Below, piece after piece: positions 1-57,656 of a DNA stretch of 64,000 nucleotides; positions within the stretch are counted from its first letter, which is position 1, and each line of letters begins with the position of its first letter. The notes below the pieces were generated by a model, which saw nothing but the letters and a program-made list of their open reading frames with translations, searched no databases and was not told where the DNA came from. This DNA is from a virus. The DNA is taken from positions 1-64,000 of IMG/VR virus record IMGVR_UViG_3300025942_000003. One strand, 5' to 3'. The position numbers and the translations under genes were made by a program.

Positions 1-168
1 TCCGGCATTCGCAGTTGCAGAGGATCCAGAGAGCGCAAGACTGAGCCCAACAACGAGAGTGCCTATCGCAGATGTGGCCGATACGCCAGAGAGCGCGATT
101 GTTACATTTGCCGAAGGCGGTGCCTTCGAGATAAAAGGCTTAAACGGTTGTGACCGTCCCAGTCTCAT
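1..168 (-). CDS. Repeat-containing virion protein, N-terminal part (runs off left edge)
   Basis: Fifty-six codons without a stop begin at an ATG directly after the TAA of the upstream gene, so the two are probably translationally coupled. After a basic start (MRLGRSQPFKPF) the frame repeats a motif of the type ALSGVSAT / ALSGSSAT about every 20 residues. Short Ala/Gly/Ser/Thr/Val repeats of this kind are common in phage tail and decoration proteins. The rest lies beyond the window, so only a structural role is suggested. Confidence 0.6.
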   Translation of the reverse strand, partial: MRLGRSQPFKPFISKAPPSANVTIALSGVSATSAIGTLVVGLSLALSGSSATANAG

Positions 169-2544: not shown

Positions 2545-3250
2545 TTACGCGACTATCCCTCGCTCAGCACGTTCCCGAGCAAAACGCTTTTGTTGTGCGA
2601 TGGCTAGTTTCGCTCGATGCTCCGCGGAAAGAAGCCGGCCCTTTTGCGCTAACGAAATCTTTAGGCGGGTCTCGATCGTGTGTGGGCCATTTATCTTTCC
2701 GAGGTTGGCTGCGCGTAATTTAGCTCGCGTTTCCTGCGTCACTGTTTTGCCGACTAGAGCAAGCGCTGCGTTGCGAACATGCTCTGGCGATTTTGGTTTT
2801 CCCCTTAGTGCGGCACTAACGCCCGCTGCGATCCTAGCCTTCAATTCTGGTTGGCTAAGAGTTTTGCGCAGTTTCGCTAACGATTCAGGACTACGCCTGA
2901 GTCCCCGCTTGGCCGCAGCCATCTTCGCGATGTATTCAGGTGAGCGCTTAATACCGAGCACTGTTCCAGCGGTAGGAGACTTGTTGTAGCCCTTACGCAC
3001 TACTTCAAACCTGTCCAGGCACCGCTGCCTCGTAAAAGTACAAATCATCTCGCGAACATAGCAGAAGCACTCTGAACTGAAACGCGTCTGGTCCATACTT
3101 ACGCCAAGCACTTTGCAGATGCGCGTTGTGATGCGTCCCACGATCAAGATGCAGTTGATGCAGACGTAGCCGATCACGAAGATTCACGGCTGACCCAATA
3201 TAGATCTTACCGTTTGCGGTATTTGTAATCTGGTAAACTCCTGTGTTCAT
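2545..3250 (-). pseudogene. GIY-YIG homing endonuclease with NUMOD3 repeats, frameshifted
   Basis: The first frame (3250 to about 3029) carries the GIY-YIG module: VYQITNTANGKIYIGS, then RDRLRLHQ, and the position of the catalytic glutamate in DDLYFYE. The second frame, read from about 3027 to 2545, continues as QRCLDRFEV and then several NUMOD3-type DNA-binding repeats (GIKRSPEYIAKM, GLRRSPESLAKL, GKPKSPEHVRN). Skipping one G in GAGG at 3028-3031 joins them into a normal-length free-standing homing endonuclease of about 235 residues. The gene is either recently inactivated, needs a frameshift, or carries a sequencing indel. Confidence 0.8.
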
Positions 3251-5386: not shown

Positions 5387-6739
5387 CTAGCTGTTTGCTC
5401 CAGCATGGAGGTCAATCTTCACTACTGCCGGCGGACGAAGCACACCGAACGCCCATCGGCCCTCATACAAGATGTCGATGATATTGCGTTCAAAGTGATC
5501 GCGGTTTGAGTCGGTGATATAGACCGTGGGATCTTGGCGGTCCCACACTACCAACTGTTTCAGGTCGCCAGTGTAACCAGTGCCCTGTGGAATAACTTCC
5601 GACTCAATTACCGGCAAACCCCAGAGCATCTTCGTTCCCATCTGCATTGGGCCACCAAAGTAGAACTGCCCCTGTGCACCGCGCGCCAGATCAATTGTTT
5701 CCCAATCGTACGGATTGAGCAGGAAGCCGGTTGAGCGTGCGCGGCCTGTAATTAGCGCCGCCGTGCGCGCCTTGCGGGTTGTCGTCAACAGTCCGCCGGT
5801 TGTGTCTTCTGAATCGGCGACAAATGGTTGCGGCGTCAGGTTCGGCGTGTTCTCGAGTCCGGTAAAGTGGTTTGCCCCACCTGGTCCAGCGATGATTTCC
5901 TCCTCGAGCTCGAGATCAATGTCCTTCCGCATGAACTCGGTCATCATTGATTGGAGCTGCGGGTAGTCGGCCAGAATCGTTCGGGTCGCATTCATGATAA
6001 CCGCGATGGTCTTAACCGCCGTCTGCACCACTTCCAGCGACATAGCCGCTTTCGGCTTGAGTGCGGCATCATCGGTTAGTGACGTTGCCTCGGGCACGAT
6101 CTTCGCCGCGCGTGTCAACGCATTAACCCGCACGTACTCAATTAAGTTCGAGCCTGTTTGCAGGATGGTGATCACATCGCGGATTGAAGGCGTTCGGAGT
6201 GGCAAGTCAATCGGCCACGGCCCATAATCACGTCGAACGAGCGAGCCGCCAGCCGATCCCGGCACGGTCATTACCAGCGTATCCTTGAATGATAAGCTGC
6301 CAAGGCCGACATCTTTCAATGAGATTGTCGGAGAGCGTCCAAACTGCACCGACATACTCATCTCTTTGCCTTCCGGGGCAATCTGTTTGCGCCACTGAGT
6401 AAATTCGGGAGCGCTGAAAACCAATTCGCCGGTTGATTTCAGTTCGGGGTCGTTGCCGTTCGTCGGATTGCCATAGTCAGGTTGGTGAAGTGGCTGCGAG
6501 AGGTAAGTCTCAATTGCTTTCAATTGTTTACTTCTATCGGCAAATTTGTTCTCTTCATCAACCTGGGCTTTCAGGTCTTCAATCTCTTTCCACCGGGCAT
6601 CAAGCTCGGCGTTCTGCTCAGTTGTGACAGTGGCGTCTCCCTGCTTTGCCCAGAACGCTTTTTCGGCGTCGGCGAGCTCTTTTAGTCGCTGAGTGGCGGT
6701 CTTTTTCTCTTCGGGCATCGAATAAAACTCCTTCTCCAT
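5387..6739 (-). CDS. Major capsid protein, HK97 fold
   Basis: The 450-residue product has the two-part plan of HK97-type capsid precursors. A charged coiled-coil delta domain covers about residues 10-85 (AEKAFWAKQGD, KEIEDLKAQVDEENKFADR). The shell domain follows, with DVITILQTGSNLIEYVRV, VVQTAVKTIAVIMNATR, FLLNPYDWETIDLARGAQGQ and LWGLPVIESEVIPQGTGYTG, typical of the Phage_capsid family. The prohead protease is directly upstream and overlaps by one base. A start at MPEEKK, seven codons in, is equally possible. The delta domain is expected to be removed by the protease. Confidence 0.93.
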   Translation of the reverse strand: MEKEFYSMPEEKKTATQRLKELADAEKAFWAKQGDATVTTEQNAELDARWKEIEDLKAQVDEENKFADRSKQLKAIETYLSQPLHQPDYGNPTNGNDPELKSTGELVFSAPEFTQWRKQIAPEGKEMSMSVQFGRSPTISLKDVGLGSLSFKDTLVMTVPGSAGGSLVRRDYGPWPIDLPLRTPSIRDVITILQTGSNLIEYVRVNALTRAAKIVPEATSLTDDAALKPKAAMSLEVVQTAVKTIAVIMNATRTILADYPQLQSMMTEFMRKDIDLELEEEIIAGPGGANHFTGLENTPNLTPQPFVADSEDTTGGLLTTTRKARTAALITGRARSTGFLLNPYDWETIDLARGAQGQFYFGGPMQMGTKMLWGLPVIESEVIPQGTGYTGDLKQLVVWDRQDPTVYITDSNRDHFERNIIDILYEGRWAFGVLRPPAVVKIDLHAGANS

Positions 6740-8687: not shown

Positions 8688-9412
8688 TCAAGACTATAAA
8701 TATCCTCACCTGTTATTTGCGTGTAACTCGGGCCAAACCACGGACGAGGCGCAACAACTTGTTTATTAGGCGCATCGCTCAGCACTGCGGCGATTGCTCC
8801 ATAGCTGCTATTGCCAATAATGAACCGCGAACAGGCTTTGAGCAACTTGAAATCTTCAAGATAGTCGCGACCCTCGCTATATTCGACATCACGGCCGAAC
8901 ATTCGCTTGCAATCTTCAATGTCGTCACTGAATACGAAATACGGACCGGCAACGTGTTTCATTGCTTCGTAGTAGTACGATGTGGGTATTCGCGGGTGGT
9001 AGCCTCCATTATAATCTCCGCGCCTGACATGAATACCGCAGTAATTACTGCGGGGATATTCACCAACCATGCGCAATTGCCATCTAACCTCGTCAATCGC
9101 GTGTTCAAAGAATTTCTCTGATTGCATGTGTCCGCTAAGACTGACGCTTTCAGTTAATACGACATCGCGATAGCCCCAATGAACGAAGTAATCAGGTAGC
9201 GATGGTCCACTGTAACGCGGCAGGGGATTAACGAAGTATTTCCCAACGTCAATGTCGCCACTGTAGCCGAGGCGTTGGTGATCGAAATTCTGCCATTCAG
9301 GAAATGCGTAGTCAGCATTATTCCTTCTGGCTGTCCCTATCGTTGATGCTATTTGATAGAGCTGGTTGGCCCATCGGCCATAATTTCCCAACGCAGAAAA
9401 GGTCACTATCAC
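8663..9412 (-). CDS. Alpha-1,2-fucosyltransferase (GT11)
   Basis: GT11 enzymes move L-fucose from GDP-fucose to galactose-type acceptors. The signature GIHVRRGDYNGG is present at about residues 125-136, with the N-terminal LGNYGRWANQLYQIAS typical of the family and the C-terminal LKACSRFIIGNSSYGAIAA motif. The length of 249 residues is a little short for GT11. The gene ends 25 bases into the next one and overlaps the GDP-L-fucose synthase gene upstream by four bases, so donor synthesis and transfer are co-expressed. No signal or membrane anchor is seen, so it should act in the host cytoplasm. Confidence 0.85.
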   Translation of the reverse strand: MIVTFSALGNYGRWANQLYQIASTIGTARRNNADYAFPEWQNFDHQRLGYSGDIDVGKYFVNPLPRYSGPSLPDYFVHWGYRDVVLTESVSLSGHMQSEKFFEHAIDEVRWQLRMVGEYPRSNYCGIHVRRGDYNGGYHPRIPTSYYYEAMKHVAGPYFVFSDDIEDCKRMFGRDVEYSEGRDYLEDFKLLKACSRFIIGNSSYGAIAAVLSDAPNKQVVAPRPWFGPSYTQITGEDIYSLDWRVINWT

Positions 9413-12388: not shown

Positions 12389-12589
12389 TTATGGGAACGG
12401 ATTCTCCTTATATGGAATACCAGCCTCAGCAATCTTACGCTTCATCTCTGGCCATAAGTCATCGTCAGCGAATTGCATCTTTAGATTGGGCTGAGCTAGC
12501 CTGCCTTCGCGTTCAAGTATGGCTAATCGTATATCACGAGCTGCGCGATAATCCTCGTCATTCGCAAATTCCAGTTCTTTCAAGCCCAT
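12389..12589 (-). CDS. Small acidic helical protein (66 aa)
   Basis: The ATG follows the stop of the upstream GT25-like gene without a gap. The product (MGLKELEFANDEDYRAARD..., ending IPYKENPFP) is charged and helical with no membrane segment. The function is unknown. Confidence 0.55.
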   Translation of the reverse strand: MGLKELEFANDEDYRAARDIRLAILEREGRLAQPNLKMQFADDDLWPEMKRKIAEAGIPYKENPFP

Positions 12590-13204
12590 TTACTTTAACC
12601 TCTCTTCACTCATTTGAAAGATTTCCGTGTAATCATCAACCTCATTCCGATCCCATATTGAACTCTTGCGTGGCCTTTGCCATGCAACCATCGGTGCAAC
12701 ACAATAAGCATTCAACTCAGGCAATCGAGTACTAAGGTAATTATCCCACATTTGTGCATCGAACGATGGCTGACCTTCGAGGATTCGCCTCACACAACGC
12801 TTGTGGTACGCAATCGCGTGAGTAGTCCAAGCTGCGCGTATTCGCCATAGGTGCTCGCTGTGGCGTTCTGGAGATGGTTCACCATTGTTCCAGCAAACAA
12901 GGTTCGCGCCAAGGTAGAGGATGTCCCAATCTTCAGGGAGTTCGCCGATTGCGGCTGGTAGATGGCTGAGATTGCGAAATACTACATCATCTTCTAAATG
13001 CAATAGTCGATTATCTTCGCTAAATAGGAAGTCAAGCAGGATGTTTCGCTCGCTGTGGGAGAAGGACTGATGAGGACCGATCTCCTTGACGGCTTCGTAC
13101 TTTTCAACAGTAAGCCCGACGCGTTGAAACTCTGCCCATGCCTTTACCCACTCGCTATAAACAGCGGTGAGGCAGACACGACGCTGAAAGAATGACCAGT
13201 CCAC
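12590..13204 (-). CDS. GT25-type (LPS/LOS) glycosyltransferase
   Basis: The start is GTG at 13204, six bases after GGAGAG and overlapping the upstream TAG. The product of 204 residues opens with DWSFFQRRVCLTAVYSEW. It then shows NRLLHLEDDVVF, the EDD metal-binding motif of GT25 enzymes, and DWDILYLGANLV followed by AWTTHAIAYHKRCVRRIL, both typical of the family. The usual partner substrate is a lipopolysaccharide core or a glycan on protein. It is the first glycosyltransferase of the cassette in the direction of transcription. Confidence 0.8.
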   Translation of the reverse strand: MDWSFFQRRVCLTAVYSEWVKAWAEFQRVGLTVEKYEAVKEIGPHQSFSHSERNILLDFLFSEDNRLLHLEDDVVFRNLSHLPAAIGELPEDWDILYLGANLVCWNNGEPSPERHSEHLWRIRAAWTTHAIAYHKRCVRRILEGQPSFDAQMWDNYLSTRLPELNAYCVAPMVAWQRPRKSSIWDRNEVDDYTEIFQMSEERLK

Positions 13205-14913: not shown

Positions 14914-15167
14914 CTGCCACAGTTTTCACAACCGAGAGATTGCCCGCAATTGTAGCAATTGCCGTTGTCGTGTAACTCACGCTCAAAGTAGTAAACTTGG
15001 TTGACCAAAGCTATTAGCCGCCAACGTTGCGCGGCCTGCTTATTAAGCCACGCAGTAAGTTTTTCCGACATCTGTTCATCGTTGACAATATACAGGTATT
15101 CTACGATGTTGTACTCTATCCGCCGTGCGGGTAAGCTTATTCCCGACGCTATCCAGTTTGTACTCAC
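14910..15167 (-). CDS. DUF4177-like small protein with C-terminal zinc knuckles
   Basis: It is 85 residues and overlaps its neighbours on both sides by ATGA junctions. The middle (IEYNIVEYLYIVNDEQMSEK, then LNKQAAQRWRLIALVNQVYY) has the strand-helix-strand pattern of DUF4177, with its xxLNxxAxxGWxLV core. The end, CYNCGQSLGCENCGR, holds two CxxC pairs. The combination may bind zinc. Its role between portal and minor head protein is unknown. Confidence 0.6.
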   Translation of the reverse strand: MSTNWIASGISLPARRIEYNIVEYLYIVNDEQMSEKLTAWLNKQAAQRWRLIALVNQVYYFERELHDNGNCYNCGQSLGCENCGR

Positions 15168-16762
15168 CGTTGTACCTCAAACCCTTTCATCTGCGCCTCC
15201 AGTTCTTCAAACCAGTGTTCCAGTTCTGCAAATTTAGCTAACGATGCGGGATCAATAGGCGGCTTATCTGTTGGTGCGGGCTCCGGCGCCTTGGTAGCCA
15301 TCTCTATCAGCCGCTCAGGACTCATTGGAGTAGAGAGCCCCGGCACCATCCGAATATCGCCTAATGGAGCCCCGACAGGCTTCTTGCCGACCGCGGTTAG
15401 ATACTGATCCAAGGTGGACCCGCCTGACTTGAATATCTCGGATTCGCGTTTAACCTTGGCATCTTCGTCCTCTTGGAGCACTCTAACTTTTGTTGTATCA
15501 AACTCGAATTCAGAGTTCTTCGCGTCTTGAAAGTCAGGCTTAAGCTGCCAGTTAAACTCTTCTGCCCATACGTTCTGAATCGGAATGATTACTTCCTCGT
15601 ATCCCTGCTGCCGTGCTTGCTCGGATGAGGCGTAGCTAGTGCCGTTCTGAACACCTACCATCAATTGCAATGCGGCTGGCGAGATATTGCACACCGCGCA
15701 GACTCGAGCTTCGATAATCAGCCGCAGTTCAGAGACATTCAACTCAGTCGGATTGAAGCCAAACTTCTCTACCTTCACAGGTGCTGTAAGGATGACAGGC
15801 TCACCTGCTCGACGCCCGGTTGTCTTCGCCATCCAGGACTCTTTCATGTGCGCAGCTTCAGCATCATCAATCGTGTCGCCTTCCAGCGCCGGCGAAATCA
15901 CAGGCACTTGAATACCCATATTAGCGAAGATTGACGCCGTGAATAGCGCCATTTTGTCATCAGCGCAGAGTTCCTTGTAAAGAGCTTCAAATGGTCCGAT
16001 GCCGAGGCGAGGATTACTAAGATCTACGTGTCGTTTGAGGTGCACAATGTCTCGAGCCGGATAGAGAACGGGCGCTTTACCTGGTGGCGTGTACTGATAG
16101 TGGGAGAGAAACGGATCAAGGTTGGCTTCATTTGGCACTACCGGCGATCCCCCGTCTCCAGGCCAGCGCGGTTTTACAAGGAAGTGTGGGAGATACCATA
16201 ACTGCTCCACACCTGTAAGACTGCGAGTCTTGTAGAAGTAGACGTTCCCATTCAGCCACCACGACACAGAACACGCACCTGCATAGTTAGCCCAAATGTG
16301 ATGCGGATTAGGACGTCGGATGAGTTGTGCGAGCGGATGGTTGAAGTCGCGCTTTTCATCGCTCTCAGTGCGCGTCACAACGCAGGGCTTAGCTTCGGGA
16401 ATGCGTGTAGCAGTGAAGTTTACGATCGCCATCGCAAGCGAGTTGAGATCGAGATCGCCCACTTCGGCCTTATGATCAACACGTTCTGGTCGTCTACCCC
16501 AATAGCTACGATAAGTTGGGTATGTAGGAGAGTAGTTGTACTGACCTAGATCGGGAGCGGGGAGTGGTTTGGCTTTGCTTTCATGCTGAATTCCAGCTAC
16601 CCCTAGTGTTGTAAACTCTGATTTATCACTACGAAAGGCATTAACTGCATCAAGGAACCGATCAGCCATGCGGCGCTCTTTGATCATCGCGCCAACAGGA
16701 GAGTTGCGCGCTTCGATCTCTTCGCCAAGAATTGCTTCTTGTAATGGTTCGGATTCAGCCAT
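15164..16762 (-). CDS. Portal protein (HK97-like)
   Basis: The 532-residue protein follows the terminase and carries the wing and stem pattern of HK97-type portals: LAMAIVNFTATRIPEAKPCV, PLAQLIRRPNPHHIW, SWWLNGNVYFYKTR, LWYLPHFLVKP, DIVHLKRHVDLSNPRLGIGP and CNISPAALQLMVGVQNGTSY. The dodecamer would form the DNA channel at one capsid vertex. The C-terminal 60 residues are proline-rich and acidic. It shares one base with the terminase stop. Confidence 0.92.
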   Translation of the reverse strand: MAESEPLQEAILGEEIEARNSPVGAMIKERRMADRFLDAVNAFRSDKSEFTTLGVAGIQHESKAKPLPAPDLGQYNYSPTYPTYRSYWGRRPERVDHKAEVGDLDLNSLAMAIVNFTATRIPEAKPCVVTRTESDEKRDFNHPLAQLIRRPNPHHIWANYAGACSVSWWLNGNVYFYKTRSLTGVEQLWYLPHFLVKPRWPGDGGSPVVPNEANLDPFLSHYQYTPPGKAPVLYPARDIVHLKRHVDLSNPRLGIGPFEALYKELCADDKMALFTASIFANMGIQVPVISPALEGDTIDDAEAAHMKESWMAKTTGRRAGEPVILTAPVKVEKFGFNPTELNVSELRLIIEARVCAVCNISPAALQLMVGVQNGTSYASSEQARQQGYEEVIIPIQNVWAEEFNWQLKPDFQDAKNSEFEFDTTKVRVLQEDEDAKVKRESEIFKSGGSTLDQYLTAVGKKPVGAPLGDIRMVPGLSTPMSPERLIEMATKAPEPAPTDKPPIDPASLAKFAELEHWFEELEAQMKGFEVQR

Positions 16763-18285
16763 CAGTGCATCTTTATCATTCGTCGCCCTGCAAGTTTAGA
16801 GAACGCTCCACTCGCAGCATCAACTTGATCGTCGTTTGAACCGTGCGGGAAGGCTGTTAGCTCATTACGAAATGCGACATTCCACGGTCCTTTAACGATT
16901 CTAACATTCTTTGCCTCGCACTGACTCGCAAAAGGATCGGCGCGAGTTGTTTTGTCGGTCCTAGCCATCTCCGTCTGCACCTTGAACCCTGCCAGAAGCT
17001 TCACGATGTTATCGATTACCTCGACGGCTAAGCCGGGCACTTTCTCAATCCATGTAGGTATCACCCCATAACTGTTGCGATCAGTCTCGGCTGTATCTTT
17101 CATCTGTTGATTCCGGTCATTTGGCGACCACTGCCCGCGCTGAACGTCCTCGATGTAGAAAATGCCTTGATGTTCAGCCATTAAACACCCTACAGAGTAA
17201 TCGGCTTTGGTGCTGTCGCTACCGCCAAGATCCCAATATCTAACCCGTTTAGCCTCAACTGGTGCTGCGCTAACCTCATGCGCGAGGTCAGCGAGTTTGA
17301 ACATGTTCCCCTCGCGTGCTGTTGGCCTCTGTCGGTAAAGCGCGTTCCAAAAGTACGTGCCGATGCGCTTGGCGATCTTCTGTAATCTCTTCAGAGAATA
17401 ACGCTCCGGACACAAGGGCTCTCCAACCTCGCGATCATCAGGCTCAATCGTACACGTGGGCGGAAACTCGGGCGGCTCGCCGGCGACGGGCGGCGGCGTA
17501 GGTTCTTCCTTAATTGCCTCGAATTTAACGATGTGCCACCGCTCTGGCTCCTCTTCATATTCTTGCTGTAATAGCCAACCGCACAAGTCGCTTTCATTCC
17601 AGCGTGTCATCATTATCACAATGGCGCCGCCAGGTTCTTCGCGCGTATAAAAGGTTGAGGCGTACCAAGCTTGATGGCTCTTCTGAACGGTTTCTGATGC
17701 CGCCTCTTCTGCGTTCTTAATCGGATCGTCAATAATGCCCAGATGAAAGCCCTTGCCGGTTATCGGACCACCTACGCCAGCCGCCCACAGTCCGCCGCCC
17801 TGGTCGGTTTCCCAATGCTTTACGGCTGCGGCATCGTCTTTGACTTGGCCTCCGTTTGCCATGAAGTTGTCTCGGGATGAGCGAGAGAGCGTATAGGCGA
17901 GCTCTGCGGCGTACGAATTGATGCCAACAAAGCGATTAGGAAAGCATTTAAGGTAATACGCAGAGAATAGGCGAGAGAGTTCTTCCGACTTTCCGTGTCG
18001 AGGTGGCGCAAAGATCATTACCCGCGTCAACTCGCCTAACGCCACGCGGATTAGAACTTGTGCGATTTTTACGCAGTGCGGGTACCACTTAAAGCGCGGG
18101 TTAGCGATCTGGACAAAAGCCTGGAAGTGCGCAAGGGACGGCTTAACACTGGCCGCTTTAGTTGACTGCTGCGCTCTCTGCTGCCGAATCTCCTGTAGCC
18201 GATCCTCTATCGGCCATAGGTGTCTCATCCTGAGCGAAGGAGGCAGCAAGTTTTCCGAGGTCGAGTTTGACTCCATCAGTTTCAC
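16762..18285 (-). CDS. terL: Terminase large subunit
   Basis: The ATPase half has Walker A (IFAPPRHGKSEE, about residues 92-102), Walker B with catalytic acid (HLGIIDDPIK, about 181-190) and a coupling motif region (IVIMMTRWNESD). The nuclease half shows RYWDLGGSDSTKADYSVG (first metal-binding Asp at about 362) and FPHGSNDDQVDAASG at the end. The length of 507 residues is normal. The first ATG overlaps the small-subunit gene by 128 bases; an internal start at MRHLWPIEDRL (18228) would reduce but not remove this overlap. Confidence 0.93.
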   Translation of the reverse strand: MKLMESNSTSENLLPPSLRMRHLWPIEDRLQEIRQQRAQQSTKAASVKPSLAHFQAFVQIANPRFKWYPHCVKIAQVLIRVALGELTRVMIFAPPRHGKSEELSRLFSAYYLKCFPNRFVGINSYAAELAYTLSRSSRDNFMANGGQVKDDAAAVKHWETDQGGGLWAAGVGGPITGKGFHLGIIDDPIKNAEEAASETVQKSHQAWYASTFYTREEPGGAIVIMMTRWNESDLCGWLLQQEYEEEPERWHIVKFEAIKEEPTPPPVAGEPPEFPPTCTIEPDDREVGEPLCPERYSLKRLQKIAKRIGTYFWNALYRQRPTAREGNMFKLADLAHEVSAAPVEAKRVRYWDLGGSDSTKADYSVGCLMAEHQGIFYIEDVQRGQWSPNDRNQQMKDTAETDRNSYGVIPTWIEKVPGLAVEVIDNIVKLLAGFKVQTEMARTDKTTRADPFASQCEAKNVRIVKGPWNVAFRNELTAFPHGSNDDQVDAASGAFSKLAGRRMIKMH

Positions 18286-32704: not shown

Positions 32705-32821
32705 TCAATCATCGTACTTAAACTGATCGCCGCACTTCTGACAATGCCACTGTTCGGGTGGTATTGAGTCTATAAAATGCTGGTACGCGGGCTCGCTTGC
32801 CCCTCTGTAGCTGAAAGCCAT
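32705..32821 (-). CDS. Short CxxC protein (38 aa), possibly an interrupted zinc ribbon
   Basis: ATG 32821 follows GAGGCGAT. The product MAFSYRGASEPAYQHFIDSI continues with PEQWHCQKCGDQFKYDD and then TGA. After the TGA the same frame reads GSPTYSCQRCEMMWPAQFVV, a second CxxC at the right spacing for a zinc ribbon, and ends at the methyltransferase start. The gene may have been cut by a nonsense mutation or may be read through. Confidence 0.55.
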   Translation of the reverse strand: MAFSYRGASEPAYQHFIDSIPPEQWHCQKCGDQFKYDD

Positions 32822-32858
32822 ATCGCCTCTCTTTTCATCCTGTTCTCTAAAGCCCTTT

Positions 32859-32889
32859 GCCGACCGCCCTCTAGCGTTTAACGGTCGGC
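32859..32889 (-). terminator. 8-bp stem-loop (GCCGACCG / CGGTCGGC)
   Basis: Perfect 8-bp arms enclose a 15-base loop in the gap between the HNH gene and the short CxxC gene. No T-run follows on the minus strand, so it may be an RNA-stability hairpin or a weak terminator. Confidence 0.4.
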
Positions 32890-32985
32890 CTCAGGCTCCG
32901 CACTCCCACACTCAATGTTTGCGATAGATCGTTCGCGCCATTTCTCTGTCTTCTCTGCGTAGCGTTCGGATACCAGCCGCATCAT
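32878..32985 (-). CDS. Possible small acidic-basic helical protein (35 aa or more)
   Basis: From ATG 32985 the frame reads MMRLVSERYAEKTEKWRERS and ends IECGSAEPEADR. The open frame reaches about 11 codons further upstream (VSAETLNALDE), but no normal start is in frame there. An ATG next to AGGAG is two bases out of frame. The coding-like composition suggests a real gene, perhaps with an indel at its start. Confidence 0.35.
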   Translation of the reverse strand: MMRLVSERYAEKTEKWRERSIANIECGSAEPEADR

Positions 32986-33062
32986 TTCATCTAGCGCGTT
33001 TAGAGTTTCCGCAGAGACATTCTCCTAAACATTTGCTTCGGCGCCACATGGTAGTACTACTC

Positions 33063-33464
33063 TCAAGGTTGCGCCTTCCGTTGGTTAATCGTTTCGTTAA
33101 CGATGGCTTTCATTTTCTCTGGAGGCCAAACTTCAATAATGTCGTGTCCGAAGTTGCAGATCAGAATTACGTGATAGAGATCCGCTTCGCTTAGTTTGCG
33201 TCTTTTGGCGTTGTGAGCAAATCCTAAATAGTTATCAACCCCGCAGTCGTGTTTTAGTTTTCCCTGGAGTTCGCATGTCGTAATTCCTACCGCTTCAAAT
33301 CTGCGCTTGATGATCGTCCGCGCACTGTTCCACTGCTTTGTTTTCTTCCCCGGTCCTACACGCTTCGTGCAGCGCTTCGTCTGCTTCGTGCCACGCTGGA
33401 TCGCTTTGCGGGACATGGGCTTGAACTTTCCTCGAGCTTCGGAGTAGGCCTTAGCGAAACTCAT
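33063..33464 (-). CDS. HNH-like endonuclease / recombination protein
   Basis: After a very basic N-terminal half (Lys/Arg-rich, residues 1-50), the pattern ITTCELQGKLKHDCGVDNYL, then GFAHNAKRRK, then HVILICNFGHDIIEVWPPEK gives Cys, Cys, His, Cys and His placed as in a zinc-supported HNH/treble-clef nuclease of phages. It overlaps the helicase-methyltransferase upstream by four bases. A DNA-junction or nicking nuclease is likely. Confidence 0.65.
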   Translation of the reverse strand: MSFAKAYSEARGKFKPMSRKAIQRGTKQTKRCTKRVGPGKKTKQWNSARTIIKRRFEAVGITTCELQGKLKHDCGVDNYLGFAHNAKRRKLSEADLYHVILICNFGHDIIEVWPPEKMKAIVNETINQRKAQP

Positions 33465-38765: not shown

Positions 38766-39071
38766 TCAAAGTCCGCATCGATCTAACTCCGTAGGTCGCA
38801 TAGCACGACGACGGTGCGGGTTTGGTTGCGGATAACGGTTTTCCGTGCGAACGTATTGGACCGGAGGCGACGGACGAATTAACTCCTGTAACTGCCGCGT
38901 AAACATCTCGCCTGTGGGCTCATCAAGCTCTAAGGTCTGACCATTGTCAAACGTGACCGTGTAACAGACCCGCTCGTTCTCCGTCCTTTCCACATACAAA
39001 ATGCGCTCGTTATTCATGAGCATATTTCTAGTGCAGTCTCGCCAGTTCGTTGACGTGAAGATCTCATCCAC
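38766..39071 (-). CDS. Hypothetical protein (101 aa), first gene after the gene-free region
   Basis: ATG 39071 follows AAGGTGG. The middle is strand-rich (ERILYVERTENERVCYTVTF, DNGQTLELDEPTGEMF), with a Pro/Arg-rich end. Internal ATGs at codons 17 and 19 are possible starts. It is the first gene downstream of a 980-base gene-free stretch. No family is recognised. Confidence 0.5.
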   Translation of the reverse strand: MDEIFTSTNWRDCTRNMLMNNERILYVERTENERVCYTVTFDNGQTLELDEPTGEMFTRQLQELIRPSPPVQYVRTENRYPQPNPHRRRAMRPTELDRCGL

Positions 39072-39837
39072 CTTGTTAACTCCCTTCTTCTTGCTGCTCC
39101 GTTTGATTCGTTGTAAAGAATCTCAAATATCATGATAGACCGTGCTTCCTGCCTGAGATTGCGGAAATGTCAGTTTCGTGCGTTTTTGTCAAAATCTGTC
39201 AATTCCGACGTTTTTCAACTTTCGTTCGCGCGCGTAATTCCTCTCAGATCTTCTGATCTTTAAGACACCACGACTATTATCCCGTGAGAGATCTCTGGCG
39301 CTATTTGCAGGGCTGAATGTTTAGCCATAAGCGCGTTTTGCAGGTTGAGACTGGGCTTTAGTCGTTGGGGATTTCACCCAAAGCTATCTCTCAGTTGACC
39401 GGGTTGCCAAGTCGTCAGCCATTGCCCGGAATTCAGCCTTTAGTCCGTCACGTTCCCTCGTGACATTTCAACCACTGCCGCTCGTACAGTGCGCATTAGG
39501 CAACCTTGATTTTATTGCGGTGCTCAAGGTTTCAGAGGAACCGTTGTCTCAACCCAAAGCGAGGATGTGATATACTGCCGACATCCTTAGCAAAGTGTAG
39601 CTTTTCGGTCGGGCAATAGCCCTGCTGAGCGTGGTTAGGGCGGGAATCAAATCTCGCCCTAATTGCTTTCAAAGCGGCCGTTTCTTTCCACGGCCAAGTC
39701 GCGTCTGTGCCCGACGTTCAGCTCGATGGCTATTCTCACCCAGGACAGCAGCCATCGATCTGCCGTAGTCCAAGAGGTCGCGGTCTGATCTCCGCGCTCA
39801 CGCCGCTGCGATACTCTGCGAGGGGCGGATGAAATAT
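39072..39837. other. Gene-free region with many inverted repeats
   Basis: No convincing gene is present. A folded domain is suggested at 39309-39440: AGGGCTGAAT pairs with ATTCAGCCTT (one G-U), enclosing CCGGG/CCCGG, GACT/AGTC and TGGG/CCCA stems. GTCACG/CGTGAC follows at 39447-39464. TTAGGGCGGGA pairs with TCTCGCCCTAA (39635-39662). Two leftward TTGACA boxes lie at 39187-39192 and 39197-39202 before the 39071 gene. An origin, a large RNA or eroded genes are all possible. Confidence 0.5.
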
Positions 39838-39988
39838 CAAAGAAAAAGCGATTGATAGTCGCGCCCGCGCTTTGCCCGCCTTCACCTGCCTGTAGGAACA
39901 AGAAAAGACTTTTATGGCGTAACGCGACTATCAATCGCTCCTACAGAACTCTTTTATGACCGGGGCAAATCGGTATTTATCAAAGCGC
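39838..39988 (-). ncRNA. Putative small structured RNA ending in a 17-bp stem and T-tract
   Basis: The predicted transcript starts just after the promoter at 39995-40022. It contains CTGTAGGA then AGCGATTGATAGTCGCG (39939-39923), and after 59 bases the exact complement CGCGACTATCAATCGCT (39863-39847), followed by TTTTCTTT, like an intrinsic terminator. The CTGTAGGA can instead pair with TCCTACAG in the loop, which crosses the long stem (a pseudoknot or switch). The loop also has AAAAG/CTTTT and CGCC/GGCG pairs. A TTG-initiated frame overlapping it is not protein-like. Confidence 0.6.
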
Positions 39989-39994
39989 GAGCGA

Positions 39995-40022
39995 ATTATA
40001 CTCAAACTAACAATCAAAGCAA
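39995..40022 (-). promoter_or_regulatory. Sigma-70-type promoter for the small RNA
   Basis: The -10 box is a perfect TATAAT (40000-39995). The -35 box is TTGCTT (40022-40017), with a 16-base spacer. Transcription would start near 39988 and run left into the structured region. It lies 29 bases downstream of the stop of the 40051 gene. Confidence 0.65.
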
Positions 40023-40050
40023 CCATTTTTCTCAAACAACCCCTCCGTGG

Positions 40051-40269
40051 CTACTTCCCTATAGGATTTAGTGGGTGAGACGTTTGTGCTTTCAATCGTT
40101 CAATGAGACGCCCGTATTCGTCAATGTCTCGGTTCAGGGTTTCTATTTCTTCGTTCAGCAAATCACGCTGGAGAATCGCGTGAGCACGGGCATCACACGC
40201 CGATTCTTGACCCTCTTGAAGACGTTGCAACCTGATCTCAATCGGAACCCGGTTTATAATCGTTCTCAC
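40051..40269 (-). CDS. Small coiled-coil protein (72 aa)
   Basis: GTG start preceded by GGAGGTTGAGAG. The product (MRTIINRVPIEIRLQRLQEG, then LNEEIETLNRDIDEYGRLIE) is a charged coiled coil ending in a polar tail. It may form dimers. The function is unknown. Confidence 0.6.
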   Translation of the reverse strand: MRTIINRVPIEIRLQRLQEGQESACDARAHAILQRDLLNEEIETLNRDIDEYGRLIERLKAQTSHPLNPIGK

Positions 40270-40307
40270 CTCTCAACCTCCTCCGCTGGAAGCACTGACA
40301 GCAGATT

Positions 40308-40559
40308 CTAATAAGTTCTAGTAAGAACCCCCACTTCTGCCCTACGGACTGTTGCTTCCATCTCGAACGCGTCCAAAGCATCAACCGCATCTCGTAACGC
40401 ATGGCTGTTCATTAACCAGTCCTGACGCCAAAGGGCAGCTGCATTTAGTACATCTTGTTCTAGTTGCCTTCTCTGCTCAGCGACTGTCACACTGCCAACC
40501 CATAAGCGGGACCCAATGGGCGCGCCACCCATAACGATCGGAATCTTCTTTTTCTTCAT
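40308..40559 (-). CDS. Small helical protein (83 aa)
   Basis: It begins MKKKKIPIVMGGAPIGSRLW with a Lys-rich start and continues with SVTVAEQRRQLEQDVLNAAA and VDALDAFEMEATVRRAEVGV. It overlaps the upstream gene by four bases. The function is unknown. Confidence 0.55.
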   Translation of the reverse strand: MKKKKIPIVMGGAPIGSRLWVGSVTVAEQRRQLEQDVLNAAALWRQDWLMNSHALRDAVDALDAFEMEATVRRAEVGVLTRTY

Positions 40560-56600: not shown

Positions 56601-57656
56601 GTGAAAACTATGATCAGGGAACACGTTATCGGCAGTTTGTGATCCGTCACCACCATACTCGCCTAAATGTTTTGTTACCCCTTGGGGTTGATTGAAGCCG
56701 AGCGACTCATTTCTGATATTTATGAAGTCGTGGATCTTCCCGCGACAGGCCGCCATCTTGAAATTGATTGATGTGCCAACATCCTGAAACTGGAGCGGGA
56801 TGAGTTGCCTATACCAGCGACCAAGAATTACGGGTATTACATTTCCATAGGGTGTGCCATCATGCGTGGAGTTGTTGACTGTAACTTTGCGTCTACTAAT
56901 TCCCGGCAGGATGTTGAGGATCTTCTTGAAAAAACTCTCGTGTGACTTATGCAGGAACGAGCTCTCGATTTGAACGATGCGCGTGCCCTGGAAGAACGGA
57001 CGATTATCATAGAAAATACATTTCTCTTCGGTCTTGTTGCAGACCGTTCCGGCCTGATACTCTGCGGACTTTTCTGAGAGTAGTTCCGTGCCAAGACACT
57101 CTGGCCCTTTGAATTTAACAGTGCAGTGCTGTTGGAATTGATAGCGCGGGATCAGGGCTTCGACATTGCCAACATCCTGCTTGGCTGAAATGGAGCCACT
57201 CTCACGGTTAAAGTTATCGGGTTTGTCACATCGACCGGCGAAGAGAACAATCGAATTAGCCAGGACCGCTATGCTATTGCCGATTGTTTCTGCCGCAGAG
57301 AGTGAGAGAATCCGAACGACAAGCTTTTTCCCTTCAACCCTATTCGAGTTGACATACCGAGCCATGTAGCGGAAGCCATCAATGTCATTATCGACGTTAG
57401 AAAATCGAATCGTAACGGAGTTGATCTGCTTCTTTATTGTCTTGTCCAGTGTGACGGTGGCTTTTACTTGCCGCTTATATGTGACTGGCCCAAAGGGAAG
57501 TACATAATTGAAGCCCGCAAAGGTTCGTTCTGCATCTCGGGGATCGAATCCACTGCTTGAATCATAATCACTGGAATATATTTCGAAGACCGCGAACAGA
57601 TCGCGATCACGCGAGTCGAGAACAACCTCCAAGTATGTGCCGATGTTGAGTTGCAT
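53604..57656 (-). CDS. Large tail tip / host-specificity protein with LamG-like domain
   Basis: The 1350-residue protein lies after the minor tail protein, where the lambda J-type attachment protein is expected. The N-terminal 330 residues have baseplate-like strands and cysteines (FKGPECLGTELL, GTVCNKTEEKCIFYDNRPF). Residues about 440-660 form a concanavalin/LamG-like module (NHGFYVIDNSPTLNIS, QSFILNRGTDTAGG, WRFGYTPNLFAGAI), suggesting glycan binding. The later part has hub-type segments (FGLFFRWNAKGQLVIDSERP, YLIVFVYDGTTISL earlier) and a beta-rich end (GGVIFGDSVYAQYAKIRLIL). It probably recognises the host surface. Confidence 0.75.
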   Translation of the reverse strand: MQLNIGTYLEVVLDSRDRDLFAVFEIYSSDYDSSSGFDPRDAERTFAGFNYVLPFGPVTYKRQVKATVTLDKTIKKQINSVTIRFSNVDNDIDGFRYMARYVNSNRVEGKKLVVRILSLSAAETIGNSIAVLANSIVLFAGRCDKPDNFNRESGSISAKQDVGNVEALIPRYQFQQHCTVKFKGPECLGTELLSEKSAEYQAGTVCNKTEEKCIFYDNRPFFQGTRIVQIESSFLHKSHESFFKKILNILPGISRRKVTVNNSTHDGTPYGNVIPVILGRWYRQLIPLQFQDVGTSINFKMAACRGKIHDFINIRNESLGFNQPQGVTKHLGEYGGDGSQTADNVFPDHSFHSRLAYLTGYCTGSDIETEDPAPAISSVVAGIVPDQIYFDVDPDGTGKLRDGSGGVTSPGSSVTAPSAPADSFDAAMFEPGTPTFYFKTQETIYGGIFPTPPGGMTDSSGNGNHGFYVIDNSPTLNISTPEIPVETDPDSRFVSGGFGFLSAPSGGDLDPRGIQTWVAVGRITSHVDQSFILNRGTDTAGGVPFGLSFGLGLGSDTIFASFGNGAIGGGSGQLSYGPIAEDGTPYLIVFVYDGTTISLYVQGCLRDRQPFTGEIVFSDFNNSPWRFGYTPNLFAGAIHQSQGTTRLGMYNGIAWTPEQVSRLWASMRVNPTGCPGEDWTDNPVDHVRWLLTEPSALNFPENMIDDFQSAYAAAYNCGAIKDETNAERALLPNTEVSKAGVDFRRYTSTGLLGPQSFESTRTQIPAGVPARSLINVGSGGDAIGEYEFYDPSAPPTSLDLLIAYRKRNTCNTELSQSKKVIDVIHDQIGPTFGLFFRWNAKGQLVIDSERPADRTKLRVSSDVGATELIVNDVLPWKNTLGSPYLLHGKLHIGGNLSEVRPIAEAIYSDLGDEVTLAASASGGPTAVASAATLGGGSDTVQSSATVTIGGSLANGSSITVTIDSIDCVLDLVNGETSSIIGHRMACVINADPILREYIEAHAEDNVVTIYSKIGVLVLASELEEEHEEGTELTRVLGSFAGKALTYADTARANILDGTFEWPEASRQPVINQIKATHREAIQDFGEFPIVVNDDPHQEDYIKVSPFEPDHSAIDNYNQDARRCNALLNKFRAGDKFFKLGSTGRALLLDEGDVICASDDSGNYRNVLMRIEDAQVRNNVEIFFVSRLYSRDQFSDLIPDPVDASIEAGLPNFQAPPPDIQFNDEDFPPDGLMQATDGSAGLTSIRGGVIFGDSVYAQYAKIRLILRGGVVVDESINSRLPPNEDGEGVFEFLASVDGLYTVEAVACNQWGCSDPITADIIVGFGTLNGLALMDGFLYLTQDGDILEKQDA

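Follow-up and report, generated by a model that had tools for sequence, protein, structure and literature searches.

A putative gene for a structured non-coding RNA with crossing helices in an uncultured phage

The window analysed here, a stretch of 64,000 nucleotides from a 67,212-base IMG/VR virus record, carries on its minus strand a locus, RNA-1, that is probably a free-standing gene; its product would be a structured, non-coding phage RNA some 150 nt long. The original prediction had left the choice between a structured regulatory RNA and an attenuator. Its reading as a structured RNA is supported by compensated base pairs in a second phage genome (L004), and of its two alternatives the free-standing RNA appears to fit better, because conservation ends with the T-tract, beyond which the two genomes differ in sequence. 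RNA-1 adds an RNA family that is absent from Rfam, and covariation speaks for a pseudoknot within its intrinsic terminator; its surroundings point to a phage site at which several structured RNAs appear to be exchanged, each as a unit. Few non-coding RNAs of phages are known so far, most of them with no assigned function, and RNA-1 is a defined object to test.

Layout of the RNA-1 locus

RNA-1 is situated in a 980-bp non-coding tract (39072-40050) without a convincing gene, in a genome that is otherwise, as had been claimed, densely packed with genes; these lie on the minus strand. The claimed promoter and the roughly 150 bases ending in a perfect 17-bp stem and a T-tract were both present at the predicted place, on the minus strand (Table 1). 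In the 5′ to 3′ direction, the promoter is followed by a leader, arm a, arm b, a 59-nt loop holding a′ (unusual for a terminator), arm b′, and the T-tract. Transcription would start at ∼39988, 6-7 nt past the −10 element. A third helix, P1, was found by a repeat search and joins the first bases of the putative transcript to those before b′; depending on the actual start, its outermost pairs may fall upstream of the RNA. P1 encloses a/a′, and both helices cross the b/b′ stem.

Table 1. Features of the RNA-1 locus (window coordinates).
Feature	Position	Strand	Sequence and remarks
Promoter	39995..40022	-	−35 TTGCTT 40022-40017, 16-nt spacer, −10 TATAAT 40000-39995
RNA-1, putative non-coding transcript of ∼150 nt	39838..39988	-	From promoter and terminator positions, the homology block, and frames not kept in L004
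Helix P1, 5′ strand	39981..39993	-	CGCTCGCGCTTTG; 13/13 pairs with 39862-39874
Pseudoknot arm a	39939..39946	-	CTGTAGGA; pairs with 39890-39897 (8 bp)
Terminator stem arm b	39923..39939	-	AGCGATTGATAGTCGCG; half of the perfect 17-bp inverted repeat; identical in L004
Pseudoknot arm a′	39890..39897	-	TCCTACAG; within the terminator loop; partner of arm a
Helix P1, 3′ strand	39862..39874	-	CAAAGCGCGGGCG; directly before arm b′
Terminator stem arm b′	39847..39863	-	CGCGACTATCAATCGCT; second half of the perfect 17-bp inverted repeat; identical in L004
T-tract of intrinsic terminator	39838..39846	-	TTTTCTTTG; T-rich tail kept in L004

The second pairing of the original prediction, a/a′, was said to cross the stem and to compete with it. 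The crossing was found but the competition was not, as a and b have a single base in common (39939); P1 and b′ have two. Since both helices share almost no bases with the 17-bp stem, they would interlock with it or hand over to it rather than compete for bases.

Taken together, these signals exceed what chance would provide. The minimum free energy of RNA-1 is −58.5 kcal/mol (z = −4.2), and none of 200 shuffled sequences was equally stable. A perfect 17-bp inverted repeat at such spacing is expected about 4e-4 times per 64 kb (estimated as 64000 x 110 / 4^17). The pattern TTGnnn-15..19-TATAAT, scanned on both strands, occurs only once in the window, namely, in the RNA-1 promoter, the −35 element of which is weak (3/6). 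Taken alone, the 8-bp a/a′ pairing would be just mildly improbable in a single sequence (estimated at ∼0.03); it gains support from the compensatory changes in L004.

A homologous RNA and its covariation

Searching IMG/VR with the 17-mer of the stem revealed one true relative, L004 (IMGVR_UViG_3300005336_000007; 57.6 kb, G001), a record that is probably complete, judging from its 110-bp terminal direct repeat. At 57118-57224, the same record contains a tRNA gene (Rfam 68 bits) overlapping a 16-bp inverted repeat, CAACGGTCTACTAAAC. Both stem arms are present in L004 at nearly the spacing of the window, and the RNA-1 DNA is 84% identical over 39836-40029 (E about 1e-50), whereas for most L004 proteins no counterpart could be detected in the window's phage and the matched ones are 28-77% identical. 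The homology block begins at the T-tract and ends a little upstream of the −35 element, with unrelated flanks on both sides, and within it the −35 element, the spacing, the −10 element, the stem and the T-tract are kept. Its edges thus coincide with promoter and terminator, which is the footprint expected of a promoter-to-terminator gene. Indels of 1 and 2 nt between the two sequences break the reading frame and thereby argue against a protein gene. It is indeed extremely improbable that a small protein is encoded here, by a TTG ORF at 39934-39659 (91 aa): a Shine-Dalgarno-like AGGAG does precede its TTG by a few bases, but, besides losing its frame in L004, the ORF runs across the terminator into an unrelated element.

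Paired changes in relatives, the absence of which was to count against a structured RNA, were found in 2 of the 8 a/a′ pairs and in one P1 pair. Arms a and a′ are CTGTAGGA and TCCTACAG in the window and CTTCAGGA and TCCTGAAG in L004; the two changed pairs are double-compensated, and none is broken. In P1, one double change (C-G to U-A) and one wobble change (U-G to C-G) are accompanied by one broken pair, and in L004 both strands carry one extra nucleotide at matching positions. Altogether, three pairs are double-compensated, and all but one of the 70 scored cells are paired (98.6%), a result from two sequences, both of which had been seen when P1 was picked. When the 3′ partners were slid by 1-3 columns as a control, pairing dropped to 35-43% and no double change was left. 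The two sequences differ by 22 substitutions over 154 aligned columns. In a null simulation that scattered the same number at random over these columns and treated sites as independent, at least three double compensations arose with P = 0.001, and a/a′ alone gave P = 3e-4. A shuffle control, which is weak with two rows, matched the observed values in 48 of 500 shuffles. As the 17-bp stem does not differ between the two genomes, covariation is silent on it. The fold of RNA-1 is nonetheless probably real, because matched base changes preserve it in a phage whose neighbouring genes are mostly unrelated.

The same data bear on two further explanations. The resemblance might reflect recently transferred, undiverged DNA shared by two phages, with no functional RNA involved, and the fact that just two copies are known is in line with this. 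Yet the simulated substitutions yielded at least three double compensations with at most one broken pair at P about 1e-5, and the block edges match promoter and terminator, which makes chance quite improbable. Alternatively, the locus could act as DNA, as a binding site for a protein, as a replication origin or as the termini of a small transposable element. The perfect 17-bp inverted repeat, the same in both genomes, and nearby recombination genes (an Erf-like annealing protein and an exonuclease) would suit such an element, but the crossing helices covary, poly-T is present on one side only, homology continues for ∼80 nt beyond the repeat through the promoter, and the window's genome has a single copy; we regard a DNA-level function as very improbable. 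A transposable repeat of the MITE or REP type was rejected on account of the single copy.

Four pattern scans of IMG/VR left L004 as the sole relative, that is, two RNA-1 sequences in all. Beyond L004, the stem 17-mer gave just two chance matches, neither of them an inverted repeat. L004 was the sole relative among 15 matches to the loop 17-mer, among 31 to GGCAGGTNAAGGCGGGC (the others lacking the surrounding RNA), and among 3 to ACCGANTTGCCCCGGTCA. In GTDB genomes, the stem 17-mer matched 40 times with a single arm, and no relative was found. RNA-1 was also absent, by blastn, from the records of related phages, which had been collected via three proteins: the tail protein, a conserved protein of small size, and one of 450 aa, likewise conserved, that belongs to the structural module (window 5387-6739) and is probably the major capsid protein. 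Apparent matches of 15-19 nt in these records fell in unrelated sequence. Neither did blastn against named phages and plasmids return anything credible, nor did a scan of the relatives for long stems with T-tails reveal a convincing analogue.

Predicted folding order and possible mode of action

Pair probabilities calculated on growing 3′ ends predict the same order of events in both genomes. The a/a′ helix reaches a probability of 0.9-1.0 before P1 can form, P1 reaches ∼1.0 as soon as its 3′ strand has emerged, before b′ has been made, and b/b′ reaches 1.0 when b′ is complete. P1 and a/a′ are then lost, but in a nested model, which cannot represent pseudoknots. Freeing the a and a′ strands within the b/b′ fold costs ∼5 kcal/mol and a/a′ gives back ∼11; with a pseudoknot penalty of 7-9 kcal/mol, assumed as the usual value, the interlocked form would be about as stable as the b/b′ fold, and energies do not decide between them. 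The helices may constitute successive states or, with equal likelihood, a topological pseudoknot in which all of them coexist.

Under the favored reading, RNA polymerase would start at the TATAAT element, and in the growing RNA the 8-bp a/a′ helix is predicted to form first, before P1 brings the 5′ end beside it. Once the last 17 nt have been made, b′ would capture b, just 3′ of arm a, and the long-range 17-bp stem together with the U-tract would release RNA-1, so that its own terminator would be its last folding step. In the finished RNA, a/a′ and P1 may be kept as an interlocked pseudoknot or be swapped for the terminator stem. RNA-1 would then most likely act in trans during infection, conjecturally by pairing through its CU-rich conserved loop, AAAGUCUUUUCUUGUUCCU, or by binding a protein. 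A scan for trans targets by unconstrained duplex energy was uninformative and identified no target.

The two ordered, crossing states predicted in both genomes would also suit an attenuator or 5′ leader switch, in which P1 and a/a′, stabilized by a ligand, a protein or the ribosome, delay or prevent b/b′ and so cause read-through. The position of the adjoining sequences is compatible with this: in L004, a 115-aa ORF of the DUF1376 family (Pfam E 4e-10) starts ∼20 nt past the T-tract, and in the window the T-tract marks the beginning of another conserved RNA-like element (39673-39839), for which no promoter is obvious. A leader and its gene normally move together, however, and what follows RNA-1 in the window is ∼770 nt of non-coding sequence unrelated to that downstream of the T-tract in L004. 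Moreover, no aptamer family matched, and the early helices barely occupy the terminator arms, which argues against a classical antiterminator. An attenuator is, on balance, unlikely, though it is the foremost of the alternatives.

Neighbouring elements and known kinds of RNA

RNA-1 shares the 980-bp tract with two or more further conserved RNA-like elements, each of which recurs in a different set of phages. RNA-4 (provisionally 39673-39839) directly abuts the T-tract of RNA-1 on its downstream side and is 90.5% identical to G010 17469-17637, where other sequence precedes it. Folding of the region is strong, more so on the plus strand, and its main hairpin shows compensated changes (GATGG/CCATC to GGCGG/CCGCC). 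RNA-2 (39304-39544) is a conserved non-coding element with covarying hairpins, related to G002 8839-9070 (73%) and L163 1072-1350 (70%); the RNAalifold consensus of the three sequences contains 12 double-compensated pairs. At the place corresponding to RNA-1 and RNA-2, G005 (L043 1919-2522) and G011 (2607-3214) carry RNA-3, ∼400-500 nt of highly conserved non-coding sequence in which, for example, CAGCTAAGGTAAACGCCCCTCGGTGAGTCGAGGCAAGCGGCTGA is invariant; RNA-3 is also found in G002 (14927-15319), and in two copies it starts with a promoter-like TTGACA. Among the members tested, RNA-2, RNA-3 and RNA-4 had no significant Rfam match.

Further conserved regions were noted elsewhere. Window 32819-33065 has low coding potential, is conserved at 75% with G008 and G009, and contains the hairpin GGCCGACCG. 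In the corresponding part of the genome, G008 39989-40340 and G007 12451-12801 share 352 nt that are 98% identical, strongly folded and of little coding potential. A block of ∼50 nt upstream of gene 39071-38766 (window 39086-39136) is conserved at 87-92% in G007, G008 and G009 and coincides in part with the beginning of a small ORF (MTFEILYNES...) in G008 and G009.

As the three elements of the window are each shared with different phages, the distribution suggests that RNA cassettes are exchanged between phages. It is possible, if somewhat doubtful, that RNA-1 is one cassette of a modular island of non-coding RNAs in a group of uncultured phages, in which several unrelated structured RNAs (RNA-1, RNA-2 and RNA-4, with RNA-3 at the corresponding place in relatives) would be exchanged independently of one another, much as genes for tRNAs or accessory proteins are, and would help in taking over the host or in countering its defences.

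No Rfam 15 family reached the gathering threshold anywhere in the window, none was found at E<=1 in 39050-40060, and none at E<=5 in the L004 homologue; the Rfam riboswitches were rejected for RNA-1 for want of a family match. In attenuators and riboswitch expression platforms with an intrinsic terminator, the terminator stem is formed only after an earlier fold. The stem of RNA-1 is likewise predicted to form only after an earlier fold; in contrast to those platforms, its early helices do not sequester either arm of the terminator, and no gene is conserved downstream, where the sequences of the two genomes are unrelated. The ToxI antitoxin RNAs of type III toxin-antitoxin systems are pseudoknotted, and RNA-1 would have the same H-type pseudoknot topology, but it lacks tandem repeats and no adjoining toxin was found. 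A type III antitoxin RNA was rejected because 39060-40300 contains no tandem pseudoknot repeats; a search for the ToxN-like endoribonuclease (PF13958) gave no match, as was also the case for the control genomes. A retron RNA was rejected because reverse transcriptase (PF00078) was matched in the controls but in neither of the two genomes. Abi_2 (PF07751), the partner of AbiF-associated RNA, matched neither genome, which lends no support to such an RNA, but the control itself scored only below the cut-off.

GOLLD and ROOL, ornate structured RNAs of bacteria or phages with unknown function, are far larger (PMC12286853); RNA-1 is a structured phage RNA as well, but far smaller and without an Rfam match. 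The nearest comparison is with free-standing phage small RNAs such as VpdS of VP882 and PreS/LPR1 of lambda, which are Hfq-binding RNAs with host or phage mRNAs as their targets (PMC12197685). Like them, RNA-1 would be a short phage non-coding RNA gene, within the 50-550 nt range of prokaryotic small RNAs (PMC12197685), and, as in phage small RNAs, it has the sequence elements of its own promoter and intrinsic terminator, which the two genomes conserve. A relation to any named small RNA was not found, and RNA-1 differs from VpdS and PreS/LPR1 in being built on a long-range 17-bp stem crossed by two helices; by kind it is, as far as its sequence tells, a phage-encoded small RNA.
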